This document shows positions 43,689-49,813 of a DNA stretch of 53,855 nucleotides, in pieces. Each line of letters starts with the position of its first letter. Within the stretch, counting starts at the first letter, position 1. Source of the DNA: Candidatus Poribacteria bacterium (GTDB lineage: Bacteria > Poribacteria > WGA-4E > WGA-3G); NCBI GenBank assembly GCA_009843785.1, contig VYCT01000082.1, positions 1 through 53,855 on the forward strand, in the 5' to 3' direction. Below the pieces are notes generated by a model. That model worked only from the letters and a program-made list of their open reading frames with translations. It had not been told where the DNA came from and did no database searches. Position numbers and translations under genes: made by a program.

Positions 43689-44501
43689 TCAATCCTCAAT
43701 CATGAGTTTGGTAACATCAATCTTAGGTTCAGGGTACTTCATGTCCAGTTTCTCAAGCGTCTCCACGATACACTCCGTGATAACGAGGTTCCGATACCAT
43801 TTCTTATTTGCTGGAATTATATGCCAAGGTGCCCAGTCGGTGCTACACTTTTGGAGCATCACTTCGTACGCCTGCATATAATCATCCCAATAGGCGCGCT
43901 CACGAATATCGGATGCCTCAACCTTCCAATGTTTTGTAGGATCGTTAATCCGAGATTCCAAACGTTCTTTCTGTTCAGCCTTTGAGATATGAAGGTAAAA
44001 CTTTAAGACAACTGTCCCATTCTCAACGAGCATCCTCTCAAAATCGTTGATCTGCTGATAGCGCTGCATCCAAATCTGCTCTGGCACCAGGTCATGCACA
44101 CGAACCACGAGGACATCTTCATAATGCGAACGGTTAAAGATGCCGATTTTTCCTTTCGGTGGAACGGCTTTGTGCGCTCGCCATAAAAAGTCACGGGAGA
44201 GTTCATCTGCAGTTGGGACTTTGAAACTGACGACATCGCATCCTTGGACGTTGACCCCCTCCATCACACGTCGGATCGTGCCATCCTTGCCACATGTATC
44301 CATACCTTGCAAGATAATAAGAAGGGCATGTTGGCTTTCGGCATAAAGCAGCCACTGAAGTTCCAGCAGCTGCTTATGCAGTTTTTTGAGGCGTTTTTTC
44401 GTTTGACCTTTCTTCTCGTAAACTCCGGTAAACTCCGGTGGGTAATCGTCCAAACTGACCAATTCACCAGGCGTAATAATATTCTTAGGCTTAAGTTCCA
44501 T
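43689..44501 (-). CDS. Polyphosphate kinase 2 family protein
   Basis: PPK2 enzymes transfer phosphate between polyphosphate and nucleotides (usually making ADP/ATP or GTP from polyphosphate). The 270-residue product has Walker A G-M-D-T-C-G-K-D-G-T (about 65-74), the lid-like R-A-H-K-A-V-P-P-K-G and Walker B N-R-S-H-Y-E-D-V-L-V. Single-domain length is typical of the class III or class I enzymes that use AMP or ADP; which one cannot be told. No strong ribosome site is seen. It is followed 18 nt later by a PhyH gene, but no functional link is evident. Confidence 0.93.
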   Translation of the reverse strand: MELKPKNIITPGELVSLDDYPPEFTGVYEKKGQTKKRLKKLHKQLLELQWLLYAESQHALLIILQGMDTCGKDGTIRRVMEGVNVQGCDVVSFKVPTADELSRDFLWRAHKAVPPKGKIGIFNRSHYEDVLVVRVHDLVPEQIWMQRYQQINDFERMLVENGTVVLKFYLHISKAEQKERLESRINDPTKHWKVEASDIRERAYWDDYMQAYEVMLQKCSTDWAPWHIIPANKKWYRNLVITECIVETLEKLDMKYPEPKIDVTKLMIED

Positions 44502-44601: not shown

Positions 44602-47600
44602 TTATTGCGATAAAGATTCATAGTAGTCATCAACGAGCCTTCGGTACTCAGGCGGGACATCCTCTTTCGCGACTTGGAAGAGTTGCTTTTGCTCCTGAAG
44701 GGTGTTGAGTCGCTCTTCAAGTGCGGCTTCCAATTTCGCCAAGTCCCGAATAACGAATTCATAGTTAGGGAACGGATTTGAGCGATTTCCAGGACGGTAG
44801 TCCATAGTATTCAGCAGATCGAGCCAGAGTTCGTCAATTTCACGCCCGGATTCCCGACCACCGGCGCGTGCCTCTTGGTTCTCACCCTCACCTTCAGCCT
44901 GTCCGGGCTGCTGCCCCTCCTGGCCAGGTTGTTGTCCGGGCTGTTGACCGGGTTGTTGTCCTTCCTGCCCATCTTGCATAGCTTGTTGCGCCTGTTGCAT
45001 CCGCTCCTGAATCTGTTGCTGTTGTTCAGCGAGTTGTTGCTGACGGCGTTGTTGTTCTTCCGTCTGCTCTTGCCCCTCCATGGCTTGAAGTTCGCGTTGG
45101 ATGTCCTCCATCTGTTCCCGCGATTGTTGAAGCTGCTGAAGTGCGGCTTCGAGCTGTTCTTCTTCAGTGTTTGCCATGTTGGCTTGCGCCTGTTGCAGAT
45201 CCCCCTGTACCTGTCTGAGGGTCTCCACGACTTCTTGTTGATTCAGTTCAGCGGCGCGGAAACTACGCCATTGCAGGGCGCGTTGTGCGGTTGACATGTC
45301 CCCGGCAGTCTGCTCTTCAGTGAGCCGTCTGGTAGCATCCGTTACATTTCGGGCTGCCTCTGGATTCTCCTCACGGAGCTGCTCCGGCAAATTCTCCAAT
45401 GTATCTTCAAGTGCTTTGAGATCCTGTTGAAGTTCTCGCTGTTCGTTAGCAAGTTCAGATGCCTTTCGGAAATCTTCGGGCCGCATTTCCGACTGCTGAG
45501 AGCGGTTCCTGAGTTCTTGTGTCTCCTGTTGGACACCCGATTGTTCATCTATCAACTGTTGGACCTGTTCTGCAGCATTGGCGAGCGCGGCATCGGTGAA
45601 TTCCGATGCGACCTTTTCCAACTGTTCAATGGCTTCCTCAAGCCGTTCCTCTGCTTTTTGGCCTTTGGCGGCACTGAGTTGCGGTTCTTGTTGTTGCATG
45701 CCTTCTGAGGCTTGATCCATCTGTTCGCCAGCCTGTTGCATCGCCTGACCGGCTTGATCCAAGCGTTGGCCTTGGGTTCCTTGCGCATTCTGCTGCATGG
45801 TACTGAGCTGCTCTGCCATCTGCTGTGCCTGCTGTGACAGCTGCCCCTGTTGCTGACTGTTCTGTTGCATTTCGCTCGGAGATGGTTCGTTTTCACGTCC
45901 TAACTGCTGGCTCTGTTGACTTAGCTGCTGTTGATCTGCCAACATTTGACGTGCCTGATCTAACATCTCCTGCGTCTCCTCCTGCATCTCCATATCAAGC
46001 TCGTTCTGCTGTTCCTCAAGTTCACTTTGCAGCTCCTCCATTTCGAGCTCAAGATTCTCAGCAAGTTGGGGATTACTGTTCCGCATCTGCATCAGTATGT
46101 TCGGAAGTTCAAGACTCACTTTTATCAATAGTTCAAGTGCCTCTTGTTCCGCGGGTATTGCTGCAACAGGTTGGACAGCGTTCAGACTATCGGTCGCCTC
46201 ACGCATTTTTTCTATTGCATCCTCCAAGTTCATCAGAATCTCGGGCGTGACCGCCGATTCACCTTGCATCGCCATGCTAAACTCATCTGCAAGCCGCTGC
46301 GTCTTATCCTTCAATTCATCTTGCTTGTCTCCTGTTTTCTTAACGGCACTCCGATATTCCTCCGTAACTGATGAGGGTTTTGTGCTGATGTGTTTCGCTG
46401 TTTCTCGAATAATCTGCTTCTGGGAGGCGAGTATCTCTAAAAGCGGATTCGGCATTGGTGGCCCCTGTTCTGCCTCCATCTCTTGGAAATCTTCATTAAA
46501 CGGGCGGATTTCAATAAAATAAATATCGCTACTCGCTTCGCCGGGACCAGTGAGCGTGTTGTTATCAACAGCATGTGCATAGTAGGAGATAATATCACCC
46601 GGTTCAACATCAAATTCCTCAAGGTAGAATGTATAACTACCCTCTGCAACGCGGCGTTGAATCGTATCAATAGCCCCTGATTCTATAACAGCATCAGGCG
46701 TGGAGGTTTCCAAGGTTAATTCCTGTAGTTCGTCAGACCCGATGCGATACATAAGTTTTAGTGCTGCGATGCCATAATCGTCTGTGGCTTCAGCAATGAT
46801 TTCCACCTCACCCAACTTTGTCGTTTTGATATCGCGCCCAGGATCCTTTACCACAACCTCCGGCACAGCATCTGGGATGGCTTTTATGGTGTATTCAATG
46901 GGTATCTCGTTATTGAAACCATCAATACCCAGAAGCTCAACGGTATATGTCCCGTCCGCAATAACATCTACGGTTGTTGTAAGGATGTTCCCGTCGGAGA
47001 TAACCATCTGGGTTGAAGCAGGTTCCTGAGTTTCGTCTTTTTCCGGCTTAACATCCATCTTCAGAGCAAATGTTGCAGTTTGAATGGCTTTATTGGTCGT
47101 GAGTTTTATTTCCGCTTGTGTTCCGACGACCGCTTGGATGTCACCCGTCCCAGTTTGCACGACAGGTTTAAGACCTGTGTAGTCCGGATAAGTGTAAGCC
47201 ACAGAAATTTCCGTTACCTTCGGCATCTCAAATACTTCAACAGTATAACGTTCCGAAGTCGTCTCGTTTGCGACGACGTAGTATTCGATATCTGCGTCAA
47301 TGTTAAAAATTTCATAAGCAAACCCACGTTTATCGTCCGGGTTTTGTAACATATTAATCTGTTGCTGGGTTGTTTCCGTTTCGGCGGCGGTGGCTTCTCG
47401 GTTCTCCACATTCTCATAAGTCAAAACAACCTTCTCAGCAGATTTTCCGGTGACAGTGACGTGAATAGGTAGGCTCTTGCCACGAAGGATGCGTACATTT
47501 CCCGGTTCGACAGTTAACTTCGTTGTCAAAACTGGTTCAGTCTTCTCCCAAGGGATCAACACACGAAAAAGACTGGTTTGGAGTTCCGTTGGAAATAGGA

Positions 47601-48105
47601 GTGCGAGTACACAACAGCCAACAACAACCAAAGCTGCGATGCCGACATGCTTACGGGTCCGACTGTGATCAACCGTTGCTTTAAAATCAATACTTTTCAC
47701 GCGCTGCGTGGTATCTTCAATCAGGCGTTGGAGCATGTGCGCTTCAATGGGATCTGTTGACTCACGATTGCCGAATTCAATAGCACTCACCAATCTATCT
47801 TCAAGGTCAGGGTGGTTTTGCTCAACGTTGAGTGCGATATCCCGGAGCGTGAGTGCTGCTCGGAGCGGTTGAACGAGATACTTATAAAGCAGGTAACCCG
47901 TCACACCGATACCGAGTGTTAACAAAGCAATTCGCACAAAACTTGGCAGGGGCATTACCCAATCAATGATAGCCTCACCCACGAAGACAGCAATGATGCC
48001 CGTCAGGACGATAGCGAAGCCCGCCCAAAAAATGCTACGTTTCCAAACGCGTCTGGCATCTAAAATTTTTGTTTGTAACTCTGCGTAACCTTCTCTTGTA
48101 TTCAT
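44602..48105 (-). CDS. Large membrane protein, DUF4175-like
   Basis: A 1167-residue membrane protein. There are three transmembrane helices near the N-terminus (about 25-48, 58-80, 160-178), then beta-rich Ig-like domains (about 200-480). A very long glutamine-, glutamate- and methionine-rich coiled-coil region follows (about 590-1060), and a low-complexity Q-P-G-Q / E-G-Q-Q stretch (about 1060-1090) precedes the C-terminal segment. Architecture and the A-L-T-L-R-D-I-A segment fit DUF4175-type proteins, whose function is unknown. The start M-N-T-R-E-G is preceded by GGAGGA; an upstream ATG at 48129 is less likely. Confidence 0.75.
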   Translation of the reverse strand: MNTREGYAELQTKILDARRVWKRSIFWAGFAIVLTGIIAVFVGEAIIDWVMPLPSFVRIALLTLGIGVTGYLLYKYLVQPLRAALTLRDIALNVEQNHPDLEDRLVSAIEFGNRESTDPIEAHMLQRLIEDTTQRVKSIDFKATVDHSRTRKHVGIAALVVVGCCVLALLFPTELQTSLFRVLIPWEKTEPVLTTKLTVEPGNVRILRGKSLPIHVTVTGKSAEKVVLTYENVENREATAAETETTQQQINMLQNPDDKRGFAYEIFNIDADIEYYVVANETTSERYTVEVFEMPKVTEISVAYTYPDYTGLKPVVQTGTGDIQAVVGTQAEIKLTTNKAIQTATFALKMDVKPEKDETQEPASTQMVISDGNILTTTVDVIADGTYTVELLGIDGFNNEIPIEYTIKAIPDAVPEVVVKDPGRDIKTTKLGEVEIIAEATDDYGIAALKLMYRIGSDELQELTLETSTPDAVIESGAIDTIQRRVAEGSYTFYLEEFDVEPGDIISYYAHAVDNNTLTGPGEASSDIYFIEIRPFNEDFQEMEAEQGPPMPNPLLEILASQKQIIRETAKHISTKPSSVTEEYRSAVKKTGDKQDELKDKTQRLADEFSMAMQGESAVTPEILMNLEDAIEKMREATDSLNAVQPVAAIPAEQEALELLIKVSLELPNILMQMRNSNPQLAENLELEMEELQSELEEQQNELDMEMQEETQEMLDQARQMLADQQQLSQQSQQLGRENEPSPSEMQQNSQQQGQLSQQAQQMAEQLSTMQQNAQGTQGQRLDQAGQAMQQAGEQMDQASEGMQQQEPQLSAAKGQKAEERLEEAIEQLEKVASEFTDAALANAAEQVQQLIDEQSGVQQETQELRNRSQQSEMRPEDFRKASELANEQRELQQDLKALEDTLENLPEQLREENPEAARNVTDATRRLTEEQTAGDMSTAQRALQWRSFRAAELNQQEVVETLRQVQGDLQQAQANMANTEEEQLEAALQQLQQSREQMEDIQRELQAMEGQEQTEEQQRRQQQLAEQQQQIQERMQQAQQAMQDGQEGQQPGQQPGQQPGQEGQQPGQAEGEGENQEARAGGRESGREIDELWLDLLNTMDYRPGNRSNPFPNYEFVIRDLAKLEAALEERLNTLQEQKQLFQVAKEDVPPEYRRLVDDYYESLSQ

Positions 48106-48267
48106 ATTTCCTCCACCTATATTATCCATGAGCTATTAAGATTCCACCGACTCTCTGATTTAACCCCGTAGATTAGACAAAATAAAGCTGAAACTGTTCT
48201 TAAAGATTTTTCAGGTTGAGGTAAACGCTGCACGTTAATCACAGGCGTTAGCCATGTTTTTGTGCGT

Positions 48268-49398
48268 TTAGGGTTTGCTTACCTCAGTTTCTAATTGTGT
48301 CTTCTGCCAACCGTAATCAACATCTCCATCATAGAATTTGTCTGGATGTTCAACTGCCCAAATTTGCTTATGGATAATCCAGTTTTTCGGATCTAACGCG
48401 AGTGCCTTTCGCCATTCCGCCATCGCTTCTTCCTTCTTATCGCCTTCCAATAAGATGAGCCCGAGTTGAAAGCGTGCAGCAGCTTCAGCATTCGTTTTTA
48501 CAACCGCCTCGCTTGAGGGTTTCATTTCGTGAAGCAGCATCGCATTATAGTCGGGATCCGACAACCACTTTTCGAGCATTGCAAGGTGCTTCTGATTTTT
48601 GACATTAACGTTGAAAGGTGCTTTCACGAGCCGTCCAGCCTCGTCAACCATGACAGCGTAAGGAATCGCTTTGAGGTTATAACGGGTGCCAAAAATATTC
48701 TGTGAATCAACGAGTGTGACAAAATCGGCATTCGCAGCTTCATGCCAAGGACGTACAACAGATGCGCCTTGGGCATCGAGTGCGATTGAGATAAAGTTTA
48801 ATGCTTCGTTGTGTTTGGCGTAAAATTCCTGCCAACCTGGCAGTTGTCCACGACACCCTCACCACGACCCCCAAACATAGAGGAAAGTCTTTTTGCCGCG
48901 AAACTCTTTTAAATGTCTTGGGTTACCCTCTAAATCGGGGAGTGTGAATTCTGGAGCGAGATATGCGGGTTGGATAATCTCCAGCGTGTTCGCTGATGCT
49001 TCGTAAATCTCAAAGCCGAAGGTTTTCGCGAGGTGCGCCGGTTGGACATAAGTTACACCATCAATGTCCACAGCACCCGCCTTGCCGTCTTGGAATTGGA
49101 GTGGCACACAGAGTTCTGATTCCACACCGCCGCAAAGTACCACCATCTCCGCGCCTTCGGGGTATTCTACCTTCAATTCGAGTTGTTTAGCGAACGGTTC
49201 CAAAGGCACCAACCACGCGCCATCTTTGAAAATAGCAGGCTTGGTAAATTCAATACGTTGTGCGTTTACTGAAACCTGAAAATCCTTTTTTTTCATATTA
49301 TCCTCTTCAGTGAATCCGATTTGCATGCCTATTAGAGAAAATAATATCGCCAACATCAAGCGTTTTACTATAGCATGAAGTTTACGCGTAACAATCAT
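48268..49398 (-). CDS. Exported redoxin/TPR protein with predicted selenocysteine (U-G-C)
   Basis: One open frame of 376 codons interrupted only by a TGA at 48859-48861. In order: signal peptide (1-30); copper-amine-oxidase-N-like stalk domain (about 35-140); redoxin domain with P-E-F-T-L-P-D-L-E-G; then F-L-Y-V-W-G-S-W-U180-G-C-R-G-Q-L-P-G-W; and a TPR-like C-terminus (A-E-A-A-A-R-F-Q-L-G-L-I-L-L). In TlpA-type redoxins the sequence is W-C-x-x-C-R, so the TGA occupies the nucleophilic Cys position. The expected C-x-x-C is shortened to U-x-C. A SECIS-like hairpin follows at the same 21-nt spacing as in the peroxiredoxin. The gene overlaps the cytochrome gene by 4 nt (ATGA), so the two are translationally coupled. 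Pseudogenisation is the alternative, but the post-TGA frame is clean over 196 codons. Confidence 0.83.
48829..48861 (-). promoter_or_regulatory. UGA-Sec codon and bacterial SECIS-like hairpin in the redoxin gene
   Basis: On the minus strand TGA (48861-48859) is followed 15 nt later by CTGCCA-GGT-TGGCAG (48843-48829), a perfect 6-bp stem with a GGT loop. The codon-to-loop distance is 21 nt. The GG at the start of the loop resembles the G-containing loops recognised by SelB in known bacterial elements. Confidence 0.72.
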
Positions 49399-49763
49399 TT
49401 TGTTTTTCTCTCCCTATGTTGTTCATCGTAAATGAGGAATCTAATTATTTTTTCAGCGGTTTTCGGCGTGAGCCCAGAACCCGGCTTCCGCATCATTTTA
49501 TAGACATACTTGCGCCACTCTTCCGGCATGAAAGTAGAGTTAATGGGACGTGCAACAGTGTGGCATCGACTACACTTGTTGGTGAAGAGTTTGTAAGCTT
49601 CCTGCATCTTCGCAGGGTAGGCAGTAACATCAATAAAGTTAGGTCCCTTATCCGCTGGATAGGTTTTTGTAACTGCGCGCGGCGCGCGCAAGGCATAGAT
49701 CATTCCAATGCCTACAAGGATGATCACACCTAAGACAGTCCCCCAGATAATTATCCTTTGCAT
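49395..49763 (-). CDS. Membrane-anchored monohaem c-type cytochrome
   Basis: About 122 residues: one N-terminal membrane helix (I-I-I-W-G-T-V-L-G-V-I-I-L-V-G-I-G-M) and a small domain with the haem-attachment motif C-S-R-C-H. A Met in the following segment (S-T-F-M-P or Y-K-M-M) could be the distal ligand. It is probably a periplasmic electron carrier. The start could be ATG 49763 or an upstream GTG at 49787; neither has a strong ribosome site. The stop TGA overlaps the redoxin ATG, so the two are co-expressed. A redox partnership is plausible but not shown. Confidence 0.8.
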   Translation of the reverse strand: MQRIIIWGTVLGVIILVGIGMIYALRAPRAVTKTYPADKGPNFIDVTAYPAKMQEAYKLFTNKCSRCHTVARPINSTFMPEEWRKYVYKMMRKPGSGLTPKTAEKIIRFLIYDEQHRERKTK

Positions 49764-49813
49764 AATAAATGTAGTTTCGAGCCGCACCTACAATCCAGTT
49801 TTAGTGATTGTTG

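Follow-up and report, generated by a model that had tools for sequence, protein, structure and literature searches.

A Poribacteria redoxin with a conserved in-frame TGA as a divergent branch of the known UGC-containing selenoproteins

Selenoproteins with a UGC active site were listed in the GOS survey of 2008 as a 'Prx-like (UGC-containing)' family of 46 sequences (PMC2398784); the family is also listed in a 2022 review (PMC9312934) and carries the name 'UGC-containing TlpA disulfide reductase family protein' in a 2026 review (PMC13188914). NCBIfam holds the model NF041054, 'ResA-like WAxxUGC motif-containing protein' (WAxxUGC_long), with an equivalog cut-off of 300 bits. The main texts of the selenoprotein papers searched did not mention Poribacteria, and in those on UGC selenoproteins no mention was found of a Cu_amine_oxidN1-like domain, a second Cys pair or a cytochrome neighbour. 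The protein described here scored 156.1 bits against NF041054 (110 bits in the genome scan), under the 300-bit cut-off, and is thus a divergent relative that belongs to the broad UGC-TlpA kind of selenoprotein and not an NF041054 equivalog. The same model matched 24 of the 24 aligned family members, and its cut-off was exceeded in none of the 387 genomes searched. The original prediction had proposed an undescribed selenium module; as to the motif and the protein type this was not upheld, since UGC Prx/TlpA-like selenoproteins have been catalogued since 2008 and NF041054 exists. The protein is therefore a divergent new branch of a known selenoprotein type and not a new kind, and what seems not to have been described before, as far as the papers searched go, is the branch found in Poribacteria, marked by a stalk-like domain, a second Cys pair, a TPR tail and UAC variants.

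The window, the whole stretch of 53,855 nucleotides analysed, is one contig in the 6.17 Mb draft genome of a Candidatus Poribacteria bacterium. The selenoprotein gene lies on the minus strand at 48268-49398, with the ATG at 49398 and the stop codon at 48268-48270, and encodes 376 amino acids with one TGA read through. This single in-frame TGA stands at residue 180 and is followed by 196 residues, so that the minus-strand reading bore out the lone TGA in a redoxin motif with 196 clean codons after it. Reading with table 11 gave two ORFs (48859-49398 and 48268-48651), and the protein is therefore easily mis-annotated by standard gene calling. The product is a ResA/TlpA-type redoxin with an N-terminal stalk-like domain and a C-terminal TPR tail. 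A hydrophobic helix at residues 3-28 (49315-49392, minus strand), seen in the structure model and the sequence, is a presumed signal peptide or anchor. The Cu_amine_oxidN1-like (stalk-type) domain at residues 44-88 (49135-49269, minus strand) scored 22.9 bits in Pfam, just below the 24.2 cut-off, and was matched at E <= 0.01 in 17 of 24 family members. The redoxin/AhpC-TSA (ResA-like) domain at residues 148-260 (48619-48957, minus strand) was assigned from Pfam, at 51 bits and over the cut-off, and from fold comparison. The TPR at residues 306-339 (48382-48483, minus strand) rests on Pfam TPR_2, below the cut-off in this protein and matched by 24/24 family members, and on the family alignment; a conserved tail, NWIIHKQIWAxExPxxFYxGxVDYxWQ, follows it. 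The same trio of redoxin, Cu_amine_oxidN1-like stretch and TPR recurs across the family in Pfam. The proposed three-domain make-up thus stood above the Pfam cut-off for the redoxin, while the other two domains were under the cut-off yet recurrent in the family.

Homologues were drawn from relatives, a GTDB-based contig collection and a second phylum (that of genome G168), which gave 87 distinct sites, 57 of them Poribacteria-type (L087, on a short contig with the label Armatimonadia, being one of these) and 30 in the second phylum. The codon at Sec180 (48859-48861, minus strand), which aligned with the first Cys of the CxxC in ResA/TlpA proteins, was TGA in 87/87 sites and Cys in 0/87. Apart from this TGA the homologous frames were open, and the protein downstream of it was conserved. 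A TGA at residue 180 in every homologue examined is far beyond chance. With the TGA read as U, the alignment placed Sec at position 180 in all 87 sites, and the pattern of neither Cys nor Sec at this position was absent. The active-site motif of the window protein was WGSWUGCRGQLPGWQ and that of the Poribacteria-type sequences W[GA]SWU[GA]CR, with UAC in place of UGC at eleven loci. In a search for a Cys (CGC) counterpart, each of the 14 matches without a TGA that were read proved to be an ordinary ResA/TlpA paralogue with CxxC and fell outside the UGC clade; the plasmid matches listed were distant ResA/DsbE/TlpA proteins. The CGC variants next to the cytochrome that had been envisaged were not found. 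It is unusual for 87 sites to include no Cys version, and this suggests that the short U-x-C geometry cannot do without Sec. Elsewhere in the window TGA served as an ordinary stop. From sequence comparison, the reading of UGA180 as a genuine selenocysteine codon is very well supported.

Bacterial SECIS elements have been modelled with an apical loop of 3-9 nt, a stem of 4-16 bp, a G in the first two loop positions and a loop 16-37 nt from the UGA (PMC13188914). A putative apical SECIS hairpin of 15 nt, CUGCC-AGGUU-GGCAG (48829-48843, minus strand), was placed by comparative pairing and covariation together with this model. Its family form, CUGCC-xGGxU-GGCAG, spans nucleotides 19 to 33 when the T of TGA is numbered 1. 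The stem has 5 bp, the loop is the 5-nt AGGUU with G at loop position 2, and the loop starts 20 nt after the UGA, so that the hairpin agrees with the published model in loop, stem length and spacing. The Leu186 codon was CTG in 54/57 sequences, whereas CTG makes up 14% of the Leu codons in the rest of these genes; the Gln190 codon was CAG in 54/57 sequences, the corresponding share of CAG being 42%. TTG at Leu186 and CAA at Gln190 occurred in exactly the same three sequences (L089, L092 and L100, from three different families); because TTG and CAA always came together, a C-G pair of the stem becomes U-A. This synonymous-site covariation is the decisive evidence for the predicted SECIS. Over 45 aligned sequences 88.9% of the stem cells paired, with a covariation score greater than that of all 500 shuffles; in slid controls pairing was far lower, although one of them (+3), with 50% pairing, equalled the covariation score. 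Folded as a single sequence, the region did not stand out significantly (z -1.2); the hairpin was seen only by comparative analysis. Rfam, also when run with loose thresholds, returned neither a SECIS nor any other RNA in the window.

The sel genes expected for such a system were all present in the genome, namely selA (600 bits), selB (346 bits, adjoining the tRNA-Sec gene), selD (361 bits) and tRNA-Sec (78 bits), each above its cut-off. The selD gene also encodes a selenoprotein: an in-frame TGA lies in its KCAGUASK motif (L106, G000:C132:36283-37206). Within the phylum selA was detected in 50/58 genomes with the redoxin gene and in 21/26 without it, and presence of the redoxin gene does not track presence of selA. 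Among the 8/58 genomes that had the redoxin gene and in which selA was undetected, several were incomplete MAGs. The universal TGA, the Sec machinery in the genome and the co-varying SECIS hairpin together give strong support to the proposed selenium dependence of the redoxin.

In the alignment U180 corresponded to the first (nucleophilic) Cys and C182 (codon 48853-48855, minus strand; invariant) to the second Cys of the CxxC relatives, with one residue deleted between them. Both predictions, Sec as the nucleophile and a U-x-C contracted from CxxC, agree with this. The maximum-likelihood tree of the redoxin core placed all UxC sequences on one side of a 100/99 branch, and the CxxC sequences with one UPSC selenoprotein on the other. 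On this alignment and tree, the U-x-C is read as a CxxC shortened by one residue, common to one well-supported clade. The AlphaFold model of the window protein had a mean pLDDT of 84 and a pTM of 0.76, and residue 180 lay just ahead of helix 181-196, the expected catalytic place in a thioredoxin fold. The nearest solved folds were ResA, StoA, TlpA and DsbE, with Foldseek matches to ResA at E around 1e-10 and TM-scores by target of 0.78-0.86. Further TlpA paralogues were encoded in the same genome.

Other Sec-containing proteins were seen among the sequences examined. A TlpA-type Sec redoxin with WATWUPSC (UxxC; L147, G115:C245:2000-10275) fell outside the UGC clade, in a group with the CxxC branch. 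At a Poribacteria locus (L101, G070:C730:9000-14500) two large frames lay side by side, and the Prx-like motif of each contained an in-frame TGA (GNWUPFC in one, GSWUPHC in the other). Both followed repeats of beta-rich domains that by eye are carboxypeptidase-regulatory-like, and they make up a further tandem of Poribacteria selenoproteins. The UGC homologue on the Armatimonadia-labelled contig (L087; WJIW01000434.1, a very short contig of 3039 bp) was 41%-identical and adjoined Poribacteria sequences in the core tree, so that a binning error or a transfer is possible.

A second cysteine pair, absent from the original prediction, was found in the N-terminal domain. Cys89 (codon 49132-49134, minus strand) and Cys97 (codon 49108-49110, minus strand) form a hairpin Cys pair in the alignment and the AlphaFold model, on strands 85-90 and 96-102, and C89, C97, U180 and C182 were all invariant in the Poribacteria-type family. 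The pair also occurred in many second-phylum relatives, for example as CREGLCVPLP. A second-phylum UGC subclade (L146, L164, L167, L171-L173 and L175-L177) had a shortened N-terminus, no CxxxxC pair and no obvious signal peptide, and the redoxin of L146 was flanked by short-chain dehydrogenase genes, which suggests a cytoplasmic version of this subclade. The pair thus goes with the N-terminal domain and is dispensable for the UxC core; the UGC family as a whole requires neither the second pair nor export. C89/C97 may either serve as a relay or form a disulfide with a structural role. In a selenocysteine-only redox relay within one chain, which we regard as doubtful, Sec180-Cys182 would exchange electrons with Cys89-Cys97 of the stalk domain while the TPR tail binds the client. 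If true, the protein would work in the periplasm as a self-contained, selenium-dependent reductase or isomerase, never converted back to Cys in evolution.

The upstream neighbour was the gene of a membrane-anchored single-haem cytochrome c (CSRCH) at 49395-49787 on the minus strand, whose TGA stop and the redoxin ATG overlap by 4 bp as ATGA, which confirmed the reported overlap of the two genes. Because of this overlap, TGA is a stop in the cytochrome gene and Sec in the redoxin gene. A same-strand cytochrome c directly upstream, mostly overlapping the redoxin frame, was present in every locus of one Poribacteria family (f1) with enough flank. Downstream on the same strand lay genes for a 1175-aa DUF4175 protein (44602-48129) and a PPK2 polyphosphate kinase (43689-44501), an order conserved in close relatives. 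The cytochrome is conserved throughout the order, and at least 17 genomes have it but no redoxin (G008, G017, G038, G040, G041 and G058-G069). At the same-genus sites of G008 and G017 the transketolase, cytochrome and DUF4175 genes were present and the redoxin was missing between cytochrome and DUF4175. The redoxin occurred without such a cytochrome in 7 genomes (G072, G074, G076, G078, G079, G080 and G082); the two genes were on different contigs in G070 and about 0.8 kb apart in G071. An obligate pairing was rejected on this presence and absence of each gene without the other, and since each occurs alone the pairing is lineage-specific and not an obligate module. Of the proposed redox module with the cytochrome, the overlap held as a conserved feature of one Poribacteria family, but elsewhere each gene was found without the other.

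At the sequence level, comparison established the insertion of Sec, the fold, the placement of Sec at the catalytic position and the four conserved redox residues; we infer export, the direction of the reaction, the reductant, the role of the TPR tail and the client. Taken as a whole, the best explanation, which we hold to be likely, is an exported ResA/TlpA-type thiol-disulfide oxidoreductase, recoded by SelB and tRNA-Sec, with Sec180 as nucleophile and Cys182 as resolving residue. SelB and tRNA-Sec would recode UGA180 as Sec on the compact SECIS hairpin 20 nt downstream. After export, the redoxin would probably stay in the periplasm, kept there by its N-terminal helix. Disulfides of the substrate would be attacked by Sec180, which lies at the N-terminal end of the active-site helix; the resulting mixed selenenylsulfide would then be resolved by Cys182, leaving a tight bond between Sec180 and Cys182 that a periplasmic DsbD-type pathway may reduce again. 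The genome encoded one clear DsbD-type transporter homologue and also cytochrome c assembly proteins. The TPR tail may hold a client or partner, and in one Poribacteria family the redoxin gene is probably co-transcribed with the overlapping small cytochrome c gene.

A role as a Sec peroxidase of the Prx/GPx-like type, in which Sec180 would reduce peroxides and Cys182 resolve, is the main rival to disulfide exchange and is judged unlikely. The AhpC-TSA and Redoxin Pfam models scored equally and the UGC family was named 'Prx-like' in the 2008 survey (PMC2398784), but the sequence and fold neighbours are ResA, StoA and TlpA, the active site is W-x-x-W-U-x-C-R and not the peroxiredoxin P-x-x-x-(T/S)-x-x-C, and the presence of another redox residue two positions further along is in keeping with thiol-disulfide exchange. 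In favour of the peroxidase, the chemistry of Sec is well suited to peroxides. The possibility that the TGA is a true stop or Trp, with a separate or dead downstream frame arising from a pseudogene, an assembly error or ordinary readthrough, draws on the splitting of the gene by standard callers. It is extremely improbable given the identical TGA in 87 distinct sites of independent assemblies with conserved downstream protein, the synonymous covariation of the SECIS stem and the full Sec machinery. As TGA is also used as a stop nearby in the window, both the pseudogene and the alternative-code readings were rejected on these grounds.

ResA-like proteins serve cytochrome c maturation, and the redoxin might accordingly belong to a dedicated electron-transfer or maturation module, reducing the CxxCH thiols of the overlapping apocytochrome or exchanging electrons with it. 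The 4-bp ATGA overlap in this genome and the same-strand upstream cytochrome throughout the f1 loci with enough flank are consistent with such a module, but it is made quite improbable by the cytochromes that lack a redoxin, same-genus sites included, by the seven genomes with a redoxin and no cytochrome, by the separate contigs in G070 and by the other TlpA paralogues in the genome. For the redoxin gene, an ecological context is given by a sponge metagenomic survey in which SelA and SelB were found in most sponge-symbiont bins and not in most related reference genomes (PMC5649159). The redoxin gene is one concrete, widespread use of the Sec machinery in sponge symbionts. Poribacteria are themselves uncultured sponge symbionts.

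Compared with known systems, the window protein shares with ResA, TlpA and CcmG (DsbE) the fold, the overall position of the active site and, by prediction, the membrane-anchored periplasmic layout; those proteins are CxxC, whereas this one is UxC, with one residue fewer and extra N- and C-terminal domains. Like the E. coli fdhF-type SECIS, the predicted hairpin lies inside the coding region right after the UGA, with a small GG-containing apical loop and spacing in range, but its 5-bp stem is short and matches no Rfam family. With NF041054 the protein has in common the Sec-Gly-Cys active site in a ResA-like domain, and the profile also aligns ahead of the redoxin and, in distant members, to the C-terminal tail; it differs in having WGSW instead of WAxx and in falling below the 300-bit cut-off. 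The published UGC-containing Prx/TlpA-like selenoproteins likewise combine a redoxin/TlpA domain with the UGC motif, here WGSWUGCR, whereas some Poribacteria members read UAC.
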